Source: Salisaeta longa DSM 21114 (lineage in GTDB: Bacteria > Bacteroidota > Rhodothermia > Rhodothermales > Salinibacteraceae). From it: a stretch of 64,000 nucleotides of DNA. The stretch spans positions 62,001 to 126,000 of the forward strand of contig NZ_ATTH01000001.1 of the NCBI RefSeq assembly GCF_000419585.1, in the 5' to 3' direction. The notes beneath the pieces are model-generated. The model searched no databases and was not told where the DNA came from. It saw nothing but the letters and a program-made list of their open reading frames with translations. Shown in pieces: positions 7,386 to 35,129 of the stretch (positions are counted from its first letter, which is position 1; each line of letters begins with the position of its first letter). The translations under genes were made by a program, and so were the position numbers.

Positions 7386-8543
7386 ATGCTGTATTTCTTT
7401 TTGAAATTTCTGGAGCGACAGTTTGAGCCGCCCGGGTTTCAGGTCTTCCAGTTCATCACGGTGCGCGCGTCGCTCGCAGCCATCACGGCGCTCATCATTG
7501 CCCTGTTTGCGGGGCGGCGCATCATCCGGTGGCTCCGGGCGCAGCAGCTGGGCGAGCGGGTACGCAGCGGGGAAGCTGCCGGCGCGGTGAGCCATGCGCA
7601 CAAGGCCGGTACGCCCACCATGGGTGGCATCATCATCTTGCTGTCGCTGCTGGGCTCCACCGCGCTCTGGGCCGACCTCTCCAACACCTATCTCTGGCTG
7701 CTGTGGGGCGCTACGGCGTGGATGGGGCTCGTGGGCTTCGCGGATGACTACATCAAGACGGTTCGGAAAAACAAGGACGGCCTCGCGGCCCGCTACAAGG
7801 TGTGGGGGCAAGTGAGCATCGGACTCCTGGTGGGCGGCGTGCTGTACTTTCACCCCGATTTTGAGGCGTTCAATGCGCTCACGTACATGCCCTTTCTCAA
7901 AAACCGCGTCATCAACTACGACGTGTTCGAAGGGTGGGTGCACGGCGTGGACCTCGGCTGGGTGGTGTACCTGCCGGTGGCGGTCTTTATCATGACGGCC
8001 GTGTCAAACGCGGTCAACCTCACCGACGGCCTCGACGGCCTCACCACGGGCGTTACGGCCTTTGTGGGATTGGGACTGACGGCGCTGGCGTACATCTCGG
8101 GCAACGTCAACTTTGCGACGTTCCTGAACGTGATGTACCTACCCGGAACGGGCGAGATTGCGGTGTTTGGGGCGGCGCTGGTGGCGGCGTGCTTCGGATT
8201 TTTGTGGTACAACGGATATCCGGCGAGCATCTTCATGGGGGATACCGGCGCGCTGGCATTGGGCGCGGCCGTCGGGGCCATGACGCTGATGGTGCGCAAG
8301 GAGCTGCTTCTGCCCCTACTGGGCATTGTGTACGTCGCCGAGGCGGTGTCGGTGATTATGCAAACCAGCTACTTCAAGTACACGCGGCGGCGCACCGGCA
8401 CCGGCCGGCGCATCTTCCGGATGGCGCCGCTGCACCATCACTTTGAGGCGAAAGGGACGCACGAGGCGAAGATCGTCACCCGGTTCTGGATCGTCACCGC
8501 GCTCACCGTCATTGCGGCGCTGCTCACGCTGCGCATCCGGTAA
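7386..8543 (+). CDS. mraY: Phospho-N-acetylmuramoyl-pentapeptide-transferase
   Basis: This 385-residue integral membrane enzyme moves phospho-MurNAc-pentapeptide onto undecaprenyl phosphate, making lipid I. About ten hydrophobic segments are visible. The conserved aspartate pair is in FADDYIK (Asp120/121), and NLTDGLDGL (about 211-219) is the second signature. The histidine-rich loop PLHHHFE occurs near the C-terminus. It is 15 bases downstream of murE and shares its promoter. The usual division-cell-wall cluster stops here: the next gene is a convergent peptidase, so murD, ftsW, murG and murC must lie elsewhere. Confidence 0.96.
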   Translation: MLYFFLKFLERQFEPPGFQVFQFITVRASLAAITALIIALFAGRRIIRWLRAQQLGERVRSGEAAGAVSHAHKAGTPTMGGIIILLSLLGSTALWADLSNTYLWLLWGATAWMGLVGFADDYIKTVRKNKDGLAARYKVWGQVSIGLLVGGVLYFHPDFEAFNALTYMPFLKNRVINYDVFEGWVHGVDLGWVVYLPVAVFIMTAVSNAVNLTDGLDGLTTGVTAFVGLGLTALAYISGNVNFATFLNVMYLPGTGEIAVFGAALVAACFGFLWYNGYPASIFMGDTGALALGAAVGAMTLMVRKELLLPLLGIVYVAEAVSVIMQTSYFKYTRRRTGTGRRIFRMAPLHHHFEAKGTHEAKIVTRFWIVTALTVIAALLTLRIR

Positions 8544-8590
8544 ATCGACGCGCAGCGTGGAGCACCGAGGCGTACGTAGGGCCGCCGGAG

Positions 8591-11500
8591 CTACAGCGAA
8601 AAGCCCACGAGCCAGCGGAAGGCCCATTCGTCCTGGTTGGGCGCGATGAGGCCGGGGTCGCTGGCCCATAGCGGAAACTTGGCGACGAGGTCGAGCCCCG
8701 AGAGGACATCCGACTGCGCCGTCCAGCGGTCCATAAAGCCGAGCTGCGACAGGTTATAGCGGGCGCCGAAGCCGGCATCGCCCAGGAGGTCGTCCGCTGC
8801 GAAGCCCGCGAGGAACGCCCCGTCGTTCCAGGTGCTTCCGAGGCCCGCAAAGGCACTGAGGCGCAACGGACGCAGCGGCGCTACGCTGCGCACAGGCTGC
8901 GCTTCGAGCGCCAGGCGCCCCGCCAGCAGGTTGCGCCCGGTGGGAGCGCCTTGCAGGCGGTTGCTACCGCGCAGGTAGGCCACCGGACCGCTCGGCCCAA
9001 AGGCCACGAGGCGTGGGGCAAGGTCGTTGGCCTCGGCTGCCGCCGCGTAGGTCTGGCGGAAGACATCGGAGCGCCAGCGGGCTTCGTAGGGCACGCCGCC
9101 CAGCACAAACCGCTTCGACGAAATCAGCGAACGGGGGGCCAGGCCAAACTGCAACGAGGCCGTGCCGGTGAAGCGGCCCCATTGCTTGCGCTGCACGCCG
9201 GTAAGCAGCAGGCGCGTGGCGCTGCCGCTGCCGTCAAGCTCGCTGCCCACCTCCAGCAGGGCCGAGACGCGGTCGCCCGCTTGTTCAGCGCGCAGGTTGA
9301 GCCGCGCCGAGGCGTTGTGCGTTTGTCCGAACGGATTGGAGAGGCGCTCGCCACGAATCGGTGGAATGCACGGCGCCACGCAATCGAAGATGAAGACATC
9401 AGAGGTGGCTCCAAAGACGCGGTCGCTGGGGTTCCACTGATGGCGCAACGAGGCCGTCAGCAGGACGTCCTTCTCCGCGAGGTAGCCGCTGAGGGGCTTG
9501 CGCACCACGTACCGGTTTTCCATCAGGCCCAGGTGCTTCTGGCTGGCCCAGGTGGCGGTGGCGCGGGGGCCCAGCGCTTCAAATGGGTGCGAGGCCCGCA
9601 TCGTGTAGTCGATGCCGGTGTACCACGCCCCGCGGTCGATGGAGCCGCTCGCCACATTGTCGGGGTCGATCAGGTTGGGCTCGTCGCCGCCCGAGAAGAG
9701 GACCTGCGGCCACAGCGTAAGCATGTAGTCGGTGCGGAACTGCCCGAACAGGTAGGTGCCGCGCGACCACATGCCGCCGCCAAACCCGAAGTTGCTAGCA
9801 TACAGGGCCAGCGGGCGGTAGCCCACGGCGTAATGGTCCCACGATTGTTGTGGGCCGCGGAGGAAGCGGGCCTCCAGCGGAAACTCGTAGCTGTTGTTGA
9901 GCCGATTCACATCGGGCGTTTGCTGCAGCGGGTCAATCTCGGCGTTGGTCACGCGCGCGGGGACCTGCACGGTCACTTTGCGCTTCGGGTACACCCAGGG
10001 CCACGGCTCGGTCACAATCCAGTCGTCGGGCACCGGCTTGTGGCCGTGCATGATAAGCAGCGGGACGTTGACCCATTGCGTGGAGCCGTCGGCCAGCGTC
10101 AGCTTGACGTCCTGCGGCATGGCGATGGGCGCCCTCCGCTCCAGGTGGAGCGTGGCCTCGTAGCCGGTGCCGGTGGGCTGTTGGGTGATGTCGTTGAGGG
10201 CGTAATCGAGCGTGCGCGTCGTGTTGGTAAACTGCTCGAAGTACCAATCCAGCCGCAGCCCGCTCACATCCTCGGCGTAATCTTCGAGTTCGTACGGATC
10301 GGGGTGTTCAAATTTGCTCTCGTTGTAGTAATGCTTCAGCCAGGCGCCGCGCAGCGAATCGGAGATCACGTAGCCCATCATGTTGACGAGCATCGCGCCG
10401 CCGGGGTACGCGGCAATGCCGTAGCCGAAGTTGGTCTGAAACCAGTCGGCCGGAGTGCTGAGGCGCTCGAACAGGCCCAGGTCCTGTGCAAAGAGGACGC
10501 TGAGGTACGAGCCCCGATGCGACGGATTGTCCAGCCCCATAACGTGGCCCACGCCCTCCGTATCCATGTAGCTGGTAAAGCCCTCATCCATCCAGGCGTA
10601 GTCGGCCTCGTTGGAGCCCATGGTAGCGTAAAACCACTCGTGCGCCGCCTCGTGGGCGGTAACGCCGAGTAGCGATCGCAGCCCGCGCCGCCCGGTGATA
10701 AGGTTGAGCATCGGATACTCCATGCCCCCGTCGCCGCCTTGTGCTACCGTAAACTGCGGGTACGGGTAGGGCCCAATCTCCTGGCTAAAGAACTGGATGA
10801 GCGACGGCACCCACTGCTCCATGCGGCGCCAGCGCTCCTCCACGCCGGGCTGAAAGAGGAGGTGATACGTGTAGTTGTCGTCCGAAAGCTGCTTGTGGAT
10901 GTAGTCGGGGTCGGCGGCCCAGGCAAAGTCGTGCACGTTGTGCGCCACAAAGCGCCACGTGAGGGAATCGGAGGGGGCGGCGGTGCAGTCTTCGGGGCGA
11001 TAGGTGGTAGCGCCTGCGCCGTAGCCGTGACCAACCGCCTCCGGGTTTTGCAGGACGCCCGTTCCGCCGATGGTATAGCAGGCCGGAAGTGTGATGTCCA
11101 CGTTGAAGGTGCCATAGGGCGCGTAGAACTCGCGGCCCACGTAGGGGTCGGCGTGCCAGCCGCGCTCGTCGTACGCTGCCATTTTGGGGTACCACTGCGT
11201 CATCGAGTAGTCGATGCCTTCCATGTTGTCGCGGCCGCTGCGGCGCGTTTGGAGCGGCACCTGCGAGCGAAAGCGCATCCGAAACGTGGTGGAGGTGCCC
11301 GGCGGAATGGGATGCGCCAGCTTCACCTCCATCACCGTATCCCGAATCTTGAACGTAACCGGCGTGCCGTCTTGCGTGAGCGACTGAATGCGGTGCCAGC
11401 CGACTTCCTTGGGGCCAAGGTTGAAAATGCGCGGCACGATGCGGTCGTCCGGGTCGGGGAGGTGGCGGTTGCGCTCCGCCATCATCGAGGTGGGCTGAAA

Positions 11501-28085: not shown

Positions 28086-29639
28086 ATGCTGAGTCACGTT
28101 TGGAGCAGCGCCACGCACGGCGTGGATGCGCTCCCCATCGAAATTGAAACGCACGTCGACTCGGGGATGCCTTGCTACACGGTGGTGGGCTTGCCCAACG
28201 GGGCCGTACGCGAGAGCCGCGACCGGGTGAAGGCCGCACTTAAAAACAGCGGGCTCTCTATGCCCCGCGGCGTGATCACGATCAACTTGGCCCCGGCCGA
28301 TGTGCCCAAAGAAGGCGCGGCCTTCGACTTGCCACTGGCCATTGGGCTGCTCGCGGCGGGTACCGATTGGTTGACGCAGGACGCAGTGGACGGCTACTGG
28401 ATCTTGGGAGAGCTTGCCCTGGATGGAAGTGTGCGCCCCGTGCGGGGCGTATTGCCCATGGCGCTAAAGGCACAGGCTGAATCGTGCGCCGGCGTTATTG
28501 TGCCCGAAGCCAACGCGCCGGAGGCCGCTGTAGTAGACGGGCTGCCGGTGTATCCGGTACAAAACGTAATGCAGGCGGTGCATTTGTTGCGCGACCCCCA
28601 GCATGACGCGGCCCCTGCGCGGTACACCCGCGACCTGGATTCCCTCTTTGCGGAAAGTGTGGAGCACGCCATCGACTTCCAGGACGTACAAGGGCAGGAG
28701 AACGTGAAGCGCGCCCTGGAAGTCGCGGCCGCCGGGGGGCACAATGCGCTGATGGTAGGCCCGCCCGGGTCGGGGAAAACCATGCTCGCCCGCCGGTTGC
28801 CCACCGTGCTGCCGCCCTTGACAACCGCCGAAGCCTTAGAGACGACGAAAATCCATTCCGTGGGTGGAAAACTGGACAATCAGCATGGAATAATAGCCAC
28901 GCGGCCGTTTCGTTCGCCCCATCACACCATCTCGGATGCCGGATTATGCGGCGGTGGGGCAAACCCCTCGCCCGGCGAGATCTCGTTGGCGCACAACGGC
29001 GTCCTCTTTTTAGACGAGCTGCCCGAGTTTCAGCGCCGCGTCCTCGAAGTGCTGCGTCAGCCTCTAGAAGAAGGAAAGATTACGATTAGCCGTGCGCGCA
29101 CCACGGTTACGTATCCGGCACGCTTTATGATGGTAGCAAGCATGAACCCGTGCCCGTGTGGTCATTTGAACGATCCGAAGCGTGAGTGCGTGTGCACGCC
29201 AGCGCAGGTGCAGCGATACCTGGGTAAAATTAGTGGACCGCTGATGGACCGCGTAGACCTGCACGTAGAAGTGACCCCGGTGGCCTTCGATGACCTTGAT
29301 GGGCCGCGGAATGGATCGACATCGGCTGCTGTTCGAGCGCGCGTCGTGAAAGCGCGCGCGATGCAGCGCGATCGCTTCGCTGAACATGCAGCGCACGTTC
29401 ATTGTAATGCCCACATGGGAGCGCGCCACGTGCACGAATACTGCGCGCTCGATGAGGCCGGACGTAACTTGTTGAAAATGGCCATCGAGCGTGTGGGACT
29501 CAGCGCGCGTGCATACACCCGGATTCTAAAAGTGGCGCGCACAATAGCTGACCTTGAAGCGTCTTCAGCTATTCGTCCCGCCCACGTATCCGAAGCGATT
29601 CAGTACCGCTCGCTCGATCGGGACTGGTGGAATGGCTGA
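28086..29639 (+). CDS. comM: YifB/ComM-family Mg-chelatase-like AAA+ ATPase
   Basis: A 517-residue protein with an N-terminal Lon-like fold (start MLSHVWSSATHGVDALPIEIE with GMPCYTVVGLPNGAVRESRDR), then a Walker A GPPGSGKT (225-232), the NPSPGEISLAHNGVLFLDELPEF Walker B region split over about 300-325, and a C-terminal lid domain. NPCPCG near 355 and the following cysteines are also conserved in the family. ComM is a hexameric branch-migration helicase that helps integrate DNA during natural transformation; YifB relatives are widely conserved, and the gene alone does not prove competence. Confidence 0.9.
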   Translation: MLSHVWSSATHGVDALPIEIETHVDSGMPCYTVVGLPNGAVRESRDRVKAALKNSGLSMPRGVITINLAPADVPKEGAAFDLPLAIGLLAAGTDWLTQDAVDGYWILGELALDGSVRPVRGVLPMALKAQAESCAGVIVPEANAPEAAVVDGLPVYPVQNVMQAVHLLRDPQHDAAPARYTRDLDSLFAESVEHAIDFQDVQGQENVKRALEVAAAGGHNALMVGPPGSGKTMLARRLPTVLPPLTTAEALETTKIHSVGGKLDNQHGIIATRPFRSPHHTISDAGLCGGGANPSPGEISLAHNGVLFLDELPEFQRRVLEVLRQPLEEGKITISRARTTVTYPARFMMVASMNPCPCGHLNDPKRECVCTPAQVQRYLGKISGPLMDRVDLHVEVTPVAFDDLDGPRNGSTSAAVRARVVKARAMQRDRFAEHAAHVHCNAHMGARHVHEYCALDEAGRNLLKMAIERVGLSARAYTRILKVARTIADLEASSAIRPAHVSEAIQYRSLDRDWWNG

Positions 29640-29960
29640 TGGAGTATGTGAATTTTTAGAACCTTGACGAATGAGAGTAATTCTTACGACAACGCTGTCT
29701 GTGAACTGTAAACGAGAAAGGCGCGTAACAAGCCCCGTACTGACGGGCCAGAGGGGAAGTGGTTGATAGTAGATGCACTAGACAAGATATTCGCTTGTGT
29801 GTAAGCAATCTGTTTAGTACCCTTTGATCACGGTCGCACAACGCTCCACGTTCTCTGCGCACCATTTGCCCCTAACGAACACGTGCCTTATATTGCTTTC
29901 CGGATGGCACGCAGCAAGGACGAAATGGCCAGCGTTATTTTACAACGATTCGAAGACATC
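29640..29960. other. Leader region of the T9SS operon
   Basis: No gene is supported in these 321 bases, which are visibly richer in A+T than the DNA upstream. The candidate promoter at 29865-29895 is the only signal recognised. Confidence 0.5.
29865..29895 (+). promoter_or_regulatory. Candidate Bacteroidota-type promoter of the T9SS operon
   Basis: TTTG at 29865-29868 is followed, after 20 bases, by TATATTG at 29889-29895. This is close to the Bacteroidota consensus TTTG-N19-TAnnTTTG. Transcription would begin near 29902, giving a leader of about 59 bases before the ATG at 29961. Confidence 0.35.
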
Positions 29961-30707
29961 ATGCCAAGCCGAGCGCTTTTCCGTATAGGGTTGCTAAGTC
30001 TCCTTTTGCTTGCAGGGACCGGCCTCTGTGAAGCCACTGCCCAGAACCAGTGGGGCGGCAGCTGGGACAATCCGCGCCAGGGCAATGAGCCGCAGCGTGG
30101 AAATCAGCCGCAGCAGCAAGGCGATAGCCAAGCGGCGCAGCAACAAGCTGAGGGCGGCTTTATTGACGGCCTAACCATTGGGGCCGGCTTGGGGGCGTAT
30201 CAAGGAGACATTAGCCGAAATCCGAACAACAACTTGCTGAAGTATGTGGGCACTGCCAAGCTCACAGCACGCGTCGGCGTCGATCACCGAATGGGAACGT
30301 TTGAACAGTATGGTGTTGGCGCAGACCTTGTATATACCCGCATTGGAGGCATTACCACAGGGCTTGCCGAATTCAACAGCAACTTGCTGGCACTTGACTT
30401 CTATGGCGACTACGAGCTCCCATATGTCATGCAAGGGCTCTTTCGTGTATTTCTTGGCGGTGGGCCCATGATGGTGATTTCGCCTACGTACAGCAATTTT
30501 CCTGAGAACAATCCATCGTTCAAGAAGCTGGGTACACGCGTCGTTGGTTCTTTTAAAGTGGGCGTTACCATCCTAGACCGCATCCGGGTCGGCGCCCGCG
30601 TGTCAACGTCCGATTACATTGATGGCTACGAAGGGTTCTACAGTGGAGGCATTCCAGATACTGTGGGCTTCGTGACATTTAATTATCGATTTGACCTCAG
30701 TAGATAA
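29961..30707 (+). CDS. Small outer-membrane beta-barrel protein at the head of the gldKLMN operon
   Basis: The 248-residue product has a signal peptide ending at EATAQ, a Gln/Gly/Asn-rich linker (NPRQGNEPQRGNQPQQQ, residues about 36-60), then a barrel-like domain of about 180 residues beginning GLTIGAGLGAYQGDISRNP and ending FVTFNYRFDLSR, with a C-terminal aromatic strand. It stops 8 bases before the longest gldK frame, so it belongs to the operon. In P. gingivalis the barrel gene porP precedes porK, but I do not see the PorP/SprF signature here, and the protein is shorter than PorP. Upstream in-frame ATGs exist; 29961 was chosen because it gives a clean signal peptide. Confidence 0.72.
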   Translation: MPSRALFRIGLLSLLLLAGTGLCEATAQNQWGGSWDNPRQGNEPQRGNQPQQQGDSQAAQQQAEGGFIDGLTIGAGLGAYQGDISRNPNNNLLKYVGTAKLTARVGVDHRMGTFEQYGVGADLVYTRIGGITTGLAEFNSNLLALDFYGDYELPYVMQGLFRVFLGGGPMMVISPTYSNFPENNPSFKKLGTRVVGSFKVGVTILDRIRVGARVSTSDYIDGYEGFYSGGIPDTVGFVTFNYRFDLSR

Positions 30708-30802: not shown

Positions 30803-32524
30803 ATGTCAATTGCTATGTGGACGAAGCGTCTCGTCATTACACTGATGCTCTGCTGGATGTGCAGTGGAGCTGCCGAAGCATATTCCCAACGGCTCTTCCT
30901 GAATGGTGGAGCTCACATTGCCAGTGGCTCGATTCAGAGCGATTTGGCGGGCACCAATCCAGCAGTGTCGGGGGGCTTGCAGTTTCAGTACACCGACAAC
31001 CTGCGGCTGCGCACGGCGGTGACGTACCAGAATCTGCTGTCGCTCGATGCCATCCTGCAGATTCATTTCTTGGGGGATGACAATAAGATCAACCCCTATC
31101 TTTTCACGGGATACGGCTATTACATCTCGGACGCGGGCGAGCAAGCGCTGCTTCCAGTAGGAGCTGGAATGGAATATGGATTGACCGACAACCTAGCGCT
31201 GAATGTAGAGCTGAGCGGGCGCTGGGGTATCAATCGCTTGCGAAACGGGCAGCGTGTGAGCCTTGATATCATAACAGGCATCATGCCAAGCATCGGTTTC
31301 TCGTACAAACTCCAGCGCATCGAGCGCACCAAGCCGGGTATGACGCCCTTGGAAGACGAGGAAATGGCCAATCAAGGCCCGACGAATCAGCGATACGAAG
31401 GTGGAACCTTTGGGAGGCGTCAGGGCGAAGGGCTTGAAAATCCGTTCATGGACCCAACAGAATACGCAGGTCGCACAGCTGCCCCAACGTTCGAGCGGCC
31501 TAACCTAGATTCCCTCCGTTCTGCTGATCCACTGATTGTGCCACGTAATGGCCCGGCGCCGTATGAAGACCCGGGTATGCCTCCCATCTCGGGCCAAGTG
31601 CAAGTCTCGGATAATGGCGACATGGTGCGGCTTCCTTCGGGTACCTTCATTATGGGGCTGACGGACGAGGATCCATACAACTTGCAGAACGCCGGCCGGA
31701 AGCGCGTTACGGTTAGCTCATTTTATATTGACCGCGTAGAGGTAACGAATCAGCAGTATCGCGAATTCCTTCAGAGCCTTAGCGGGTCGAAGCGTGAGGA
31801 GATGCTTCCTGACTCAACGGCTTTTCAGTCCAGTAGAGCTAACTGGAAGACGTACTTCTATGGCTCAACTTACAATGACTACCCTGTAGTGGCCGTTACG
31901 TGGAACGAACTCCAAGCCTATTGTAAATGGGATGGCAAACGGTTGCCTACAGAGGCTGAATGGGAATACGCTGCGCGTGCTGGTCGGGTTGGTGGTGTTT
32001 ATCCCTGGGCCGGGTTCTCACCCCAGGATGCAGTGGGTCGATACCTGGCTAACTTCAGCCCTGCGCGTCAGGGGCAGGCTGCAGATGGCTATGCCTTTAC
32101 GGCACCCGTCGCATCTTATCCCCCGAGCCGCTGGGGGCTCTTTGACATGGCTGGGAATGTCGCAGAATGGGTGCGCGACGCCTTCGCCCCGACCTACTCG
32201 CAACTGTCGAGCCTCGACCCGCTCTATACCGACCCTGAGGCCAAGCAGCACGTGGTCCGTGGCGGCTCTTGGGCCTCTGACGCCTTCTCAATTGGTGTTG
32301 GCTTCCGTACGGCCCAGAATGCGTCGAGTGCTTCTACGAAGATTGGTGGTCGCTGCGCTGCCGATATCGGACAGATAGAAGGCAACATTCAGCGGTTCAA
32401 TAATACACCGCAGCCGCCCGCAGGTGGACAGCCGCCCGCAGGTGGACAGCCGCCCGCAGGTGGACAACCGCCCGCAGGTGGACAGCCGCCCGCAGGTGGA
32501 CAACCGCCCGCAGGTGGCCGCTAA
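30803..32524 (+). CDS. gldK: GldK/PorK-like T9SS ring protein with an N-terminal beta-barrel and C-terminal PPAGGQ repeats
   Basis: About 573 residues in four parts. A signal peptide ends near AAEAYSQ and has no lipobox. Residues about 28-168 form amphipathic strands resembling a small outer-membrane barrel (GGLQFQYTDNLRLRTAVTY and YLFTGYGYYI). A linker of about 100 residues follows. Residues about 274-535 are a formylglycine-generating-enzyme-like sulfatase-modifying domain: RLPSGTFIMG, VEVTNQQYREF, RLPTEAEWEYAARAG, WGLFDMAGNVAEWV and VVRGGSW. The tail has six PPAGGQ units (538-573). GldK/PorK is normally a lipoprotein that forms the periplasmic ring with GldN/PorN. Several ATGs lie upstream (to 30716); 30803 gives the best signal peptide. 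Confidence 0.85.
   Translation: MSIAMWTKRLVITLMLCWMCSGAAEAYSQRLFLNGGAHIASGSIQSDLAGTNPAVSGGLQFQYTDNLRLRTAVTYQNLLSLDAILQIHFLGDDNKINPYLFTGYGYYISDAGEQALLPVGAGMEYGLTDNLALNVELSGRWGINRLRNGQRVSLDIITGIMPSIGFSYKLQRIERTKPGMTPLEDEEMANQGPTNQRYEGGTFGRRQGEGLENPFMDPTEYAGRTAAPTFERPNLDSLRSADPLIVPRNGPAPYEDPGMPPISGQVQVSDNGDMVRLPSGTFIMGLTDEDPYNLQNAGRKRVTVSSFYIDRVEVTNQQYREFLQSLSGSKREEMLPDSTAFQSSRANWKTYFYGSTYNDYPVVAVTWNELQAYCKWDGKRLPTEAEWEYAARAGRVGGVYPWAGFSPQDAVGRYLANFSPARQGQAADGYAFTAPVASYPPSRWGLFDMAGNVAEWVRDAFAPTYSQLSSLDPLYTDPEAKQHVVRGGSWASDAFSIGVGFRTAQNASSASTKIGGRCAADIGQIEGNIQRFNNTPQPPAGGQPPAGGQPPAGGQPPAGGQPPAGGQPPAGGR
32414..32521 (+). repeat. Six tandem 18-bp units encoding PPAGGQ at the gldK 3' end
   Basis: Units begin at 32414, 32432, 32450, 32468, 32486 and 32504. 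The first five differ only in the last base (CAG or CAA); the last ends in CGC and runs into the TAA stop. The array is coding and in frame, so copy-number change would alter tail length by six residues per unit without a frameshift. Confidence 0.95.
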
Positions 32525-32614: not shown

Positions 32615-33232
32615 ATGACCAACGCTAGAAAGCGAGAAATTCTCGATCGTACGACAAAGGTGCTTAGCTTTGTCATTGGCATCTTTGGTGCCTTGGCGAT
32701 CATTGGGGTGCTGTATAAGATTTTGAAGTGGCCCAATTACACCACATTTATCACCATTGGATTCATGGGCGAGGCCGGTGCGTTCGTCATCATGGGGGTA
32801 CTTGAGCTTGCTCAAGCCTTTGTGATGGAGCCTGGCGCGGAAGGAGGCGGCGGAGGCTCCGAAGCTTCCTTGAGTGGTACGACACCCGTGCGCGCTTCGG
32901 CCCGCAAGATGATCGAAAAGAAAGTTAATGACGACTTGAGCGTCATGATGGGAGCCCTCGGCAAAGAGATTAAGCAGTTTGGCGGGGAGATTCATGAGAT
33001 GGTTGGCGAAATGAAGCGCGCCCGTGTTGCGGTGCAAGACATGCGCTCGAAACTGAGCGAAGTAGCTAGCGGAGAACTTGCCAACAGTGCAGAGAAGCTC
33101 GGCAAAGGCATGAGTACGCTCGGCACGGAAATGGAAGGTGCAGGCTCCACTGTTCAGACGATGCGCAACGACCTGGACACCATGCTTTCTCGCTTCCGCA
33201 AGTTTAACAACCCCAATGGGGCCTCTGAGTAA
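32615..33232 (+). CDS. gldL: T9SS inner-membrane motor protein GldL/PorL
   Basis: A 205-residue protein with two transmembrane helices (about 16-34 and 46-67) joined by YKILKWPNY, then a long cytoplasmic coiled-coil-like tail. The second helix has Glu53 in GFMGEAGAF, which corresponds to the conserved membrane-embedded glutamate of GldL needed to use the proton-motive force; Lys35 is also conserved in position. Five GldL and two GldM subunits form the rotary motor in better-studied systems. Length is near normal (about 215). The tail from residue 95 contains heptad-like repeats (IEKKVNDDLSVMMGALGKEI). It follows gldK by 90 bases and precedes gldM by 48. Confidence 0.9.
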   Translation: MTNARKREILDRTTKVLSFVIGIFGALAIIGVLYKILKWPNYTTFITIGFMGEAGAFVIMGVLELAQAFVMEPGAEGGGGGSEASLSGTTPVRASARKMIEKKVNDDLSVMMGALGKEIKQFGGEIHEMVGEMKRARVAVQDMRSKLSEVASGELANSAEKLGKGMSTLGTEMEGAGSTVQTMRNDLDTMLSRFRKFNNPNGASE

Positions 33233-33280: not shown

Positions 33281-34351
33281 ATGGCTGGAGGATCAGAACG
33301 AATAAAGGAGCTGCGGTACCAGGTGATGCTGGCGTTGTATTTGCCCATCCTGTTGTATGCCGCAACGACCATAGACATCGAGAATGCGGATCAAACCGTT
33401 GCGGTGCGTAACGTTAGCCCAGTGGTTTACGGGACGCAGAACGTTGTGCTTGGCCAAGAATACTCAGCGTACGCTTACCTTGCGGCAGTTCCGCAAGAAG
33501 GTACAACGAAACAAGGGGCCAACATTGAGCTGAAGGTTAATCAGGATGGAATGAAAGTTCTTGACAACCGACAGCTCGTTATGGATACTGGAGCGCTTCT
33601 TGAAAAGGGCCAGGATACCCGAACGGTCGAGTATAAAGGGACAATTGAATATAGCACCCTGGAAGGTGGGGTGAAATCACTCCCTTACAATGGGTCGTTC
33701 ACGGTTCGTCGGCCTGAGCTCGTTGCAACCAGTGTTGCAGCTCAGTCGCTCTATCGCCAGACGCTCAACCAAATCCGCATTGACGTTCCGGGGCTTGAGA
33801 ATCAACCGCTTCGCCTTGAGTACGGAAATACATCGGTTGACGGACGCACCATTCAACTCAGTCCTGCTGGAGATAACGTGACTGTCAGTGCTTACTTACA
33901 GCGGCAAGGGCAAGACGATGTATACCTGGGCGACAAAAGCTTCGGCGTGATTGATCCGCCGCGCCCGGAGATTCGTGTGCTTGATGCGCAGGGCAATCCA
34001 CTCATCAGTGGGCAAAGCTTTCCGGCCGCTCGGCCGCTCATCAACGTTAATGTTGTGGCCGATCAGGAGTTTGCGAAGAGTTACCCGCAAGACGCACGTT
34101 ACCGTGTCGGACAGGTGCAGGTATCGATTCGTCGCGGGCTTGGCGTGAGTGAACGCATTGGTACGTTTAACGTACCATCCGATGGAAGAATCAACTTCCG
34201 GACGTTTTCTGAGTATCGCAGTGCTGACCCAGAGCGCGAAGACCAGATTATTCTTGAACTTCAGGACGTTGTTCGTATCAACCACGCAGGGCAGGCCATT
34301 CCTGTCGATCTGAGTGATGCAAGCCGCTCCTATAGCTTCATCTTGTCCTGA
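33281..34351 (+). CDS. gldM: T9SS motor protein GldM/PorM, short form apparently lacking domain D1
   Basis: This 356-residue protein starts MAGG, as many GldM proteins do, and has one transmembrane helix (about 14-31). Canonical GldM is about 515 residues, with four periplasmic domains D1-D4. Here the sequence goes quickly from the helix to NVSPVVYGTQNVVLGQEYSA, which resembles the start of D2. FTVRRPELVATSVA then LYRQTLNQIRIDVPGL matches the D2-D3 junction. The mostly helical D1 domain therefore appears missing. GldM links the GldL motor to the GldK-GldN ring. AGAAGG at 33273-33278 is a Shine-Dalgarno for the ATG. Confidence 0.85.
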   Translation: MAGGSERIKELRYQVMLALYLPILLYAATTIDIENADQTVAVRNVSPVVYGTQNVVLGQEYSAYAYLAAVPQEGTTKQGANIELKVNQDGMKVLDNRQLVMDTGALLEKGQDTRTVEYKGTIEYSTLEGGVKSLPYNGSFTVRRPELVATSVAAQSLYRQTLNQIRIDVPGLENQPLRLEYGNTSVDGRTIQLSPAGDNVTVSAYLQRQGQDDVYLGDKSFGVIDPPRPEIRVLDAQGNPLISGQSFPAARPLINVNVVADQEFAKSYPQDARYRVGQVQVSIRRGLGVSERIGTFNVPSDGRINFRTFSEYRSADPEREDQIILELQDVVRINHAGQAIPVDLSDASRSYSFILS

Positions 34352-34472: not shown

Positions 34473-35129
34473 ATGATAAACAAATTTGCAAAGATAGGCA
34501 GCTTCCTCGCTGCACTGTTGCTCCTCGTTGGTGTGTTCTCCACCGCGCAGGCCCAAATGTGGCAGAGCTCAGCGAAGGTCATTGTCCCCGTTGCTGATAT
34601 CGAAGATGGGTATCCCACGCGTGCTCTTTTGGACACGCTGATTAGTCGTTTTCAATCAGTTGATAGTCTGAAAGTATACCGCACAAGTGATAAAGAAGAA
34701 AAAGTATCAATCAGCGAGCTTGAGAGCGAGTTGATTGATCAGGGGTTTGCATTAAGCAGCGCCAATAGTGTCCAAATTGGGTATAAGTTCAGGTACAATC
34801 AGGGGAATTTTTCGGAAACGATCACGGACTTGTACTTCGTGTATCGTCCGCAGGGTACCGGACAGGAGGACATTCCCATCATGTACCTTGACGCCCAGCG
34901 TCCGATTGTGAAGTCGGTCCTGGAAAACAGTGGAACGCAAAATCAGAGCAATCCTTTTCTGACGAATATTTTTGCGGACCAGCTTGCCTTTGCCCGCATT
35001 GCTCGTACGAAAGAAGATGCAACGGTTGTACAAGTTGCGGGGCGGGACTTGCGCTCTGAAGACGTGAGTGCACGTGAGAAGCGACAGCTCGTGCAGCGTA
35101 TTCTGGATATGGCTTACGGGCGCATGTAA
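34473..35129 (+). CDS. gldN: GldN/PorN-like T9SS protein, short form
   Basis: A 218-residue secreted protein with a signal peptide (cleavage near AQAQ). It is last in the operon, where gldN always lies, and its mature sequence keeps the general order of the family: an N-terminal alpha/beta region, a strand pair (YKFRYNQGNFSETITDLYFVY), an acidic-aromatic middle (MYLDAQRPIVK) and a helical C-terminus rich in charged residues (SAREKRQLVQRILDMAYGRM). Canonical GldN/PorN is about 300 residues, so about one quarter is missing. The assignment rests more on synteny than on sequence identity. In known systems it forms the periplasmic ring with GldK. A strong terminator follows. Confidence 0.75.
   Translation: MINKFAKIGSFLAALLLLVGVFSTAQAQMWQSSAKVIVPVADIEDGYPTRALLDTLISRFQSVDSLKVYRTSDKEEKVSISELESELIDQGFALSSANSVQIGYKFRYNQGNFSETITDLYFVYRPQGTGQEDIPIMYLDAQRPIVKSVLENSGTQNQSNPFLTNIFADQLAFARIARTKEDATVVQVAGRDLRSEDVSAREKRQLVQRILDMAYGRM

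Follow-up and report, generated by a model that had tools for sequence, protein, structure and literature searches.

A predicted outer-membrane β-barrel fused to the N-terminus of GldK probably anchors the type IX secretion ring of Salisaeta longa

In this work we analysed a stretch of 64,000 nucleotides of the Salisaeta longa DSM 21114 genome (the window) and found that its gldK gene encodes a single polypeptide in which a signal peptide without lipobox and a predicted eight-stranded β-barrel precede the GldK-type FGE domain. We consider it likely, with a probability of roughly 0.7, that this barrel anchors the ring of the type IX secretion system (T9SS) in the outer membrane, substituting covalently both for the lipid of the studied GldK proteins and for the disulfide that joins them to PorG. 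The two parts of this reading differ in strength: a function of the barrel as the outer-membrane anchor of GldK is strongly supported, while we infer from the comparisons given below that a replacement of PorG's role is plausible. A chemical cross-link thus appears to have been exchanged for a gene fusion in evolution. The first-pass annotation of this DNA had already proposed that a barrel fixes the ring to the outer membrane, and the eight predicted strands, the lack of a lipobox and the conservation of the fusion support this proposal, which would imply that the barrel physically holds the ring. What that annotation overlooked is that the studied GldK already has a covalently attached eight-stranded barrel, PorG. 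The features of the locus are:

28086–29639, + strand: ComM-like Mg-chelatase/AAA protein (Pfam; same place in most related loci)
29883–30707, + strand: "up", a separate predicted eight-stranded outer-membrane barrel (AlphaFold2, hhalign, conservation near gldK)
30803–32524, + strand: fused GldK, 573 residues, one open frame without internal stop
30803–30886, + strand: signal peptide, no lipobox (residues 1–28)
30881–31309, + strand: predicted eight-stranded β-barrel domain (residues 27–169; AlphaFold2, Foldseek, amphipathicity, homologous domain at 18 related loci)
31310–31612, + strand: disordered periplasmic linker (residues 170–270; pLDDT mostly <50, length variable among homologues)
31613–32359, + strand: FGE/SME-type GldK domain (residues 271–519; PF03781, TIGR03525, PorK in the PDB)
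31922–31924, + strand: C374, a conserved cysteine that aligns with a PorK cysteine and is invariant in A1 homologues
32039–32041, + strand: R413, at the site of the PorG-reactive cysteine in the RGCF motif of PorK (PorK C356; alignment, motif survey, PMC12635249)
32354–32356, + strand: C518, second conserved cysteine; the mature protein has no cysteines other than C374 and C518
32408–32521, + strand: low-complexity C-terminal tail of PPAGGQ hexapeptide repeats (translation)
32615–33232, + strand: GldL (GldL_N, E = 5.6e-6, over the Pfam cut-off)
33281–34351, + strand: GldM, short form without domain D1 (TIGR03517 positions 227–512 only; hhalign to full-length GldM starts at column 227)
34473–35129, + strand: secreted protein in the GldN position (position in related loci)

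The coordinates first given for the fused gene, 30803–32524, are correct: the frame can be read from 30716, and homologues favour a start at 30803 or 30815. The signal peptide is of the Sec/SpI type and ends with GAAEAYS, immediately before a Q. Its two cysteines, C17 and C20, follow L and M, respectively, which is the wrong context for a lipobox, and most homologues have a signal peptide without any Cys. No lipobox was found in the window protein or in 16 aligned homologues, and a lipobox created by an alternative start was rejected, as there is none anywhere in the extended frame. The signal peptide without lipobox described at first is therefore borne out, and the translation and the PF03781 and TIGR03525 matches confirm the order of the other parts, with the linker followed by the GldK-type FGE domain and the PPAGGQ tail.

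AlphaFold2, run on a 17-sequence alignment, predicts exactly eight strands in the N-terminal part (residues 27–40, 50–62, 67–75, 79–88, 96–107, 113–126, 131–148 and 151–169), with a pLDDT mostly of 85–93 that goes down to 65 in some turns; the FGE half of the same full-length model is of low confidence. Foldseek matches this block with OmpA, NspA, OprF-N and designed eight-strand barrels, and the family-averaged hydrophobicity of the strands alternates more strongly than in any of 5000 shuffles. What had been described as about 140 barrel-like residues is thus predicted, by AlphaFold2 and Foldseek, to be a closed eight-stranded barrel at residues 27–169. The Pfam OMP_b-brl profile matches 16 of the 17 homologous barrels weakly, the window copy being under the cut-off, and the PorG HMM NF052316 gives 12.1 bits on fused GldK (12.6 in the genome search) for a cut-off of 130, with E = 0.12. 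In hhalign comparisons the best E-value is obtained with PorG (2e-12), ahead of the generic OMP_b-brl set (1.9e-6) and the OMP_b-brl_2 set (0.0085), these values being those of single profile pairs, among small barrels (PorG, OMP_b-brl and the fused barrel) that all belong to one broad group. Of the small barrels tested, PorG is the nearest both to the fused barrel and to "up", and neither of these two is above the PorG cut-off; the profiles are suggestive of PorG homology for both. The two are not duplicates of each other, as they show no profile similarity.

The GldK/PorK proteins of Flavobacterium and Porphyromonas are lipoproteins, and PorG is an eight-stranded barrel disulfide-bonded to Cys343 of GldK (F. 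johnsoniae) or Cys356 of PorK (P. gingivalis), a cysteine that belongs to an RGCF motif located on the side of the ring that faces the membrane; in F. johnsoniae, Type A export depends on the PorG cysteine pair (PMC12635249). Through this disulfide the moving ring or track pushes its outer-membrane clients. In the window protein, the segment DAVGRYLANF aligns with TGRGCFLGNF of PorK, which puts R413 in the place of the cysteine. None of the 28 full-length fused proteins and neither of two fragments has the reactive RGCF-type cysteine, which is kept in 24 of 24 GldKs from other classes; these counts amount to effectively few events and not to independent ones, because fusion and cysteine loss split along one deep branch. 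Since C374 and C518, which both align with PorK cysteines, are the only cysteines of the mature window protein, there is no third cysteine for a PorG-type link. Barrel and linker are devoid of cysteine, hence of an equivalent of the PorG C-tail cysteine, which was found 13 residues or less from the end in all 23 above-cut-off PorGs that were read (one more was left unread). Outside the class (Rhodothermia), 24 of 27 genomes have a canonical PorG that scores over the cut-off, against none of 7 inside it; canonical PorG was not detected in the window's own genome, one of 8 class genomes searched. In PorK, membrane attachment is provided by the lipid, and a cross-link to PorG/PG0189 was obtained for K39, which lies at the mature N-terminus (PMC4980022); an N-terminal barrel is therefore rightly placed.

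With the barrel alone as query, and counting matches at E = 5e-9 or better, the barrel type of the window was found in 18 other genomes, from the window's family and one further family. A scan of named genomes gave mostly FGE domains from other bacteria, with no relative carrying the fusion among the inspected records. A GldL search over 245 class genomes yielded 31 T9SS-positive genomes, a 32nd match that was very weak and had stops in frame being left out. The N-terminus of gldK is readable in 29 of these 31, and in all 29 it encodes a signal peptide and a barrel-like domain. Three types of barrel occur, types 2 and 3 being assigned from sequence pattern and profile comparison. Type 1 is that of the window (families f1 and f51). 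Type 2, with a PorG-like DYTGDF start, is found in three genomes inside f1 (L176, L177 and L178) and matches PorG (1.9e-5) better than the generic sets. Type 3 is a larger barrel-like domain of about 250 residues (families f13, f16 and f55); it could not be assigned to PorG, the match being not significant. On the tree of FGE domains type 2 is nested within type 1 (97/92), and the barrel was therefore exchanged in these three genomes while the fusion was retained.

Several other arrangements were seen in the class. In genome L070, one operon contains two tandem gldK genes, one with and one without the fusion (7734–9467 and 9585–10763), which could allow mixed rings. Genomes L005, L006 and L188 (for L188 the class is assigned by inference) encode lipoprotein FGE paralogues, 47–48% identical to the FGE domain of the window protein, which cluster in the tree with type 3 GldKs, group with the lipoprotein paralogue of a Balneolales MAG and might be GldJ counterparts; the reactive cysteine is absent from lipoprotein FGE paralogues of the class too, which counts against the main reading. 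Six near-complete genomes of one genus of the window's family, g2 (G147, G195, G199 and G427–G429), have neither GldL nor fused GldK, and T9SS is therefore patchy within one genus. In genome G434, contigs C85 and C299 hold partial GldL-like matches in addition to the operon copy.

The main reading presupposes that the protein is GldK and that the fusion is real. The FGE part matches PF03781 with E = 3.8e-59, and the closest PDB chains of the C-terminal part are PorK of P. gingivalis (E about 1e-38). The TIGR03525 GldK score, at 213 bits, is under the 350-bit equivalog cut-off of NCBIfam, and the alignment shows nothing equivalent to the PorK insertion of about 150 residues (between residues 82 and 241), two observations that would fit a different FGE-family surface protein present in the operon by chance. 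We regard this as highly improbable, because GldK is by far the best NCBIfam family (E = 8.4e-63, versus 1.7e-29 for the runner-up), because the position beside gldL–gldM is fixed in readable operons, and because the genome offers no alternative candidate: in this 98.5% complete assembly the fused protein is the only GldK-type FGE protein found. An additional, lipidated GldK at another site was considered and rejected, as the only other full FGE protein resembles EgtB and the frame read at a third FGE match shows no protein of this type. The chance that an assembly or gene-calling artefact has merged two genes is negligible, given the uninterrupted frame, the identical fusion in independently assembled genomes from two families, and the occurrence of other barrel types at the corresponding fusion site in additional genomes and families. 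Assembly error had been named at first as one case that could overturn the proposal; it is excluded by the conservation of the fusion in the gldKLM operons of many other genomes.

The barrel could also be cleaved off, or serve as a transient export carrier, leaving mature GldK as a soluble periplasmic ring subunit. The long disordered linker is a potential protease target, yet it varies from about 40 to more than 130 residues across homologues, is conserved neither in sequence nor in length and shows no cleavage motif, and the barrel is kept in one chain in every readable genome despite the changes of type, which makes this scenario unlikely. The main rival, doubtful in our view and weaker than the main reading, is that the fused barrel replaces just the lipid, "up" being the PorG of this lineage and linked to the ring non-covalently or barrel to barrel. 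In its favour, "up" adjoins gldK in the majority of the genomes with the fusion, conserved in families f1-main and f51, its AlphaFold2 model has eight strands (pLDDT 78.9), and its whole length can be aligned with PorG, GD and TDYxDG-like motifs included; its hhalign E-values, again of single profile pairs, are 1.2e-10 for PorG, 8.7e-9 for the generic OMP_b-brl and 9e-5 for OMP_b-brl_2. However, "up" has no C-tail cysteine (its mature part contains none, and its aligned homologues have none beyond residue 32), the B2 genomes and families f13, f16 and f55 showed no such gene next to gldK, and the fused barrel is at least equally PorG-like by profile. Judged from its sequence, "up" is a possible, tail-less counterpart of PorG; it also has a Gln/Pro-rich N-terminal stretch, and the window copy is without Pfam match. 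A barrel that replaces only the lipid and a barrel that replaces PorG as well are not mutually exclusive readings.

SprA is encoded at full length in the genome of the window (1747 bits), together with 35 cargo tails (CTD) of the T9SS. The order up, fused gldK, gldL, gldM and the gene in gldN position was observed at every locus with a long enough contig; the conserved ComM-like upstream neighbour is probably outside the secretion machine. An identity of the 34473–35129 product as GldN found no support in Pfam, NCBIfam, the PDB or hhalign (24% probability with Bacteroidota GldN); the protein is conserved in the lineage. Domain D1 corresponds to residues 32–232 of GldM in F. johnsoniae (PMC5790014). 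In the window GldM this helical domain is missing, the transmembrane helix being followed directly by D2–D4, and the motor arm should therefore be shorter. Such a short, D1-less GldM is found across the class.

According to the main reading, in which the barrel anchors the ring in place of lipid and disulfide, fused GldK would be exported by Sec through its type I signal peptide, and the barrel would insert in the outer membrane with both ends periplasmic, the flexible linker hanging the FGE domain below the membrane. The FGE domains would then assemble a ring driven by GldL/GldM, and motor force would reach the barrel in the membrane with neither a lipid anchor nor a PorG–GldK disulfide, the covalent link being most likely the peptide chain itself. 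The PorKN ring is a 33-mer of 380–540 Å, from which we compute a spacing of about 36–51 Å between subunits. The width of an eight-stranded barrel is such that one per subunit fits this spacing. PorK extensions participate in ring contacts. With the PorK insertion missing and no recognisable GldN partner, it is not certain that the ring is PorKN-like, and it may differ from PorKN in detail. A broader proposal, to which we give slightly less than an even chance, is that throughout the class each ring subunit has its own barrel and the motor drives about thirty barrels through the membrane, the peptide bond replacing the disulfide, the barrel having been swapped for unrelated-looking ones with the linkage kept, and GldM having been shortened by the loss of D1.

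The fusion bears on how the T9SS motor transfers force to the outer membrane, a question that the field has yet to settle. A 2025 paper proposed that disulfides attach the barrels of PorG and SprF covalently to GldK, a mechanism described as unprecedented, and we found no paper describing a barrel–GldK fusion in the open-access literature. A fused barrel combined with the loss of the reactive cysteine provides independent evolutionary support for the idea of an obligatory covalent tie between GldK and a membrane barrel, and implies the prediction that a PorG–GldK fusion should rescue cysteine mutants. A barrel-anchored GldK also questions the need for GldK lipidation at all.

Compared with the known systems, the window protein shares with GldK/PorK the FGE/SME domain, the gene order gldK–gldL–gldM, the two conserved FGE cysteines and a signal peptide with envelope location, and differs from them by its N-terminal eight-stranded barrel, the absence of a lipobox, of the RGCF cysteine and of the long PorK insertion, and a score under the NCBIfam equivalog cut-off. 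With PorG (PG0189, Fjoh_1692), which of all families compared gives the fused barrel its best profile match, it has in common an eight-stranded outer-membrane barrel tied to GldK (predicted for the window protein), but this barrel is in cis at the N-terminus of GldK, whereas PorG uses the disulfide of its C-tail cysteine. OmpA and OprF show the same succession of N-terminal eight-stranded barrel, linker and periplasmic domain, with a match in fold, but their periplasmic domain binds peptidoglycan, whereas that of the window protein is an FGE-type ring subunit. Finally, as in the SprF–GldK client link of gliding, an outer-membrane protein would be held covalently on the moving GldK structure, by a peptide bond and with one barrel per GldK subunit in the window protein, in contrast with the disulfide of SprF.
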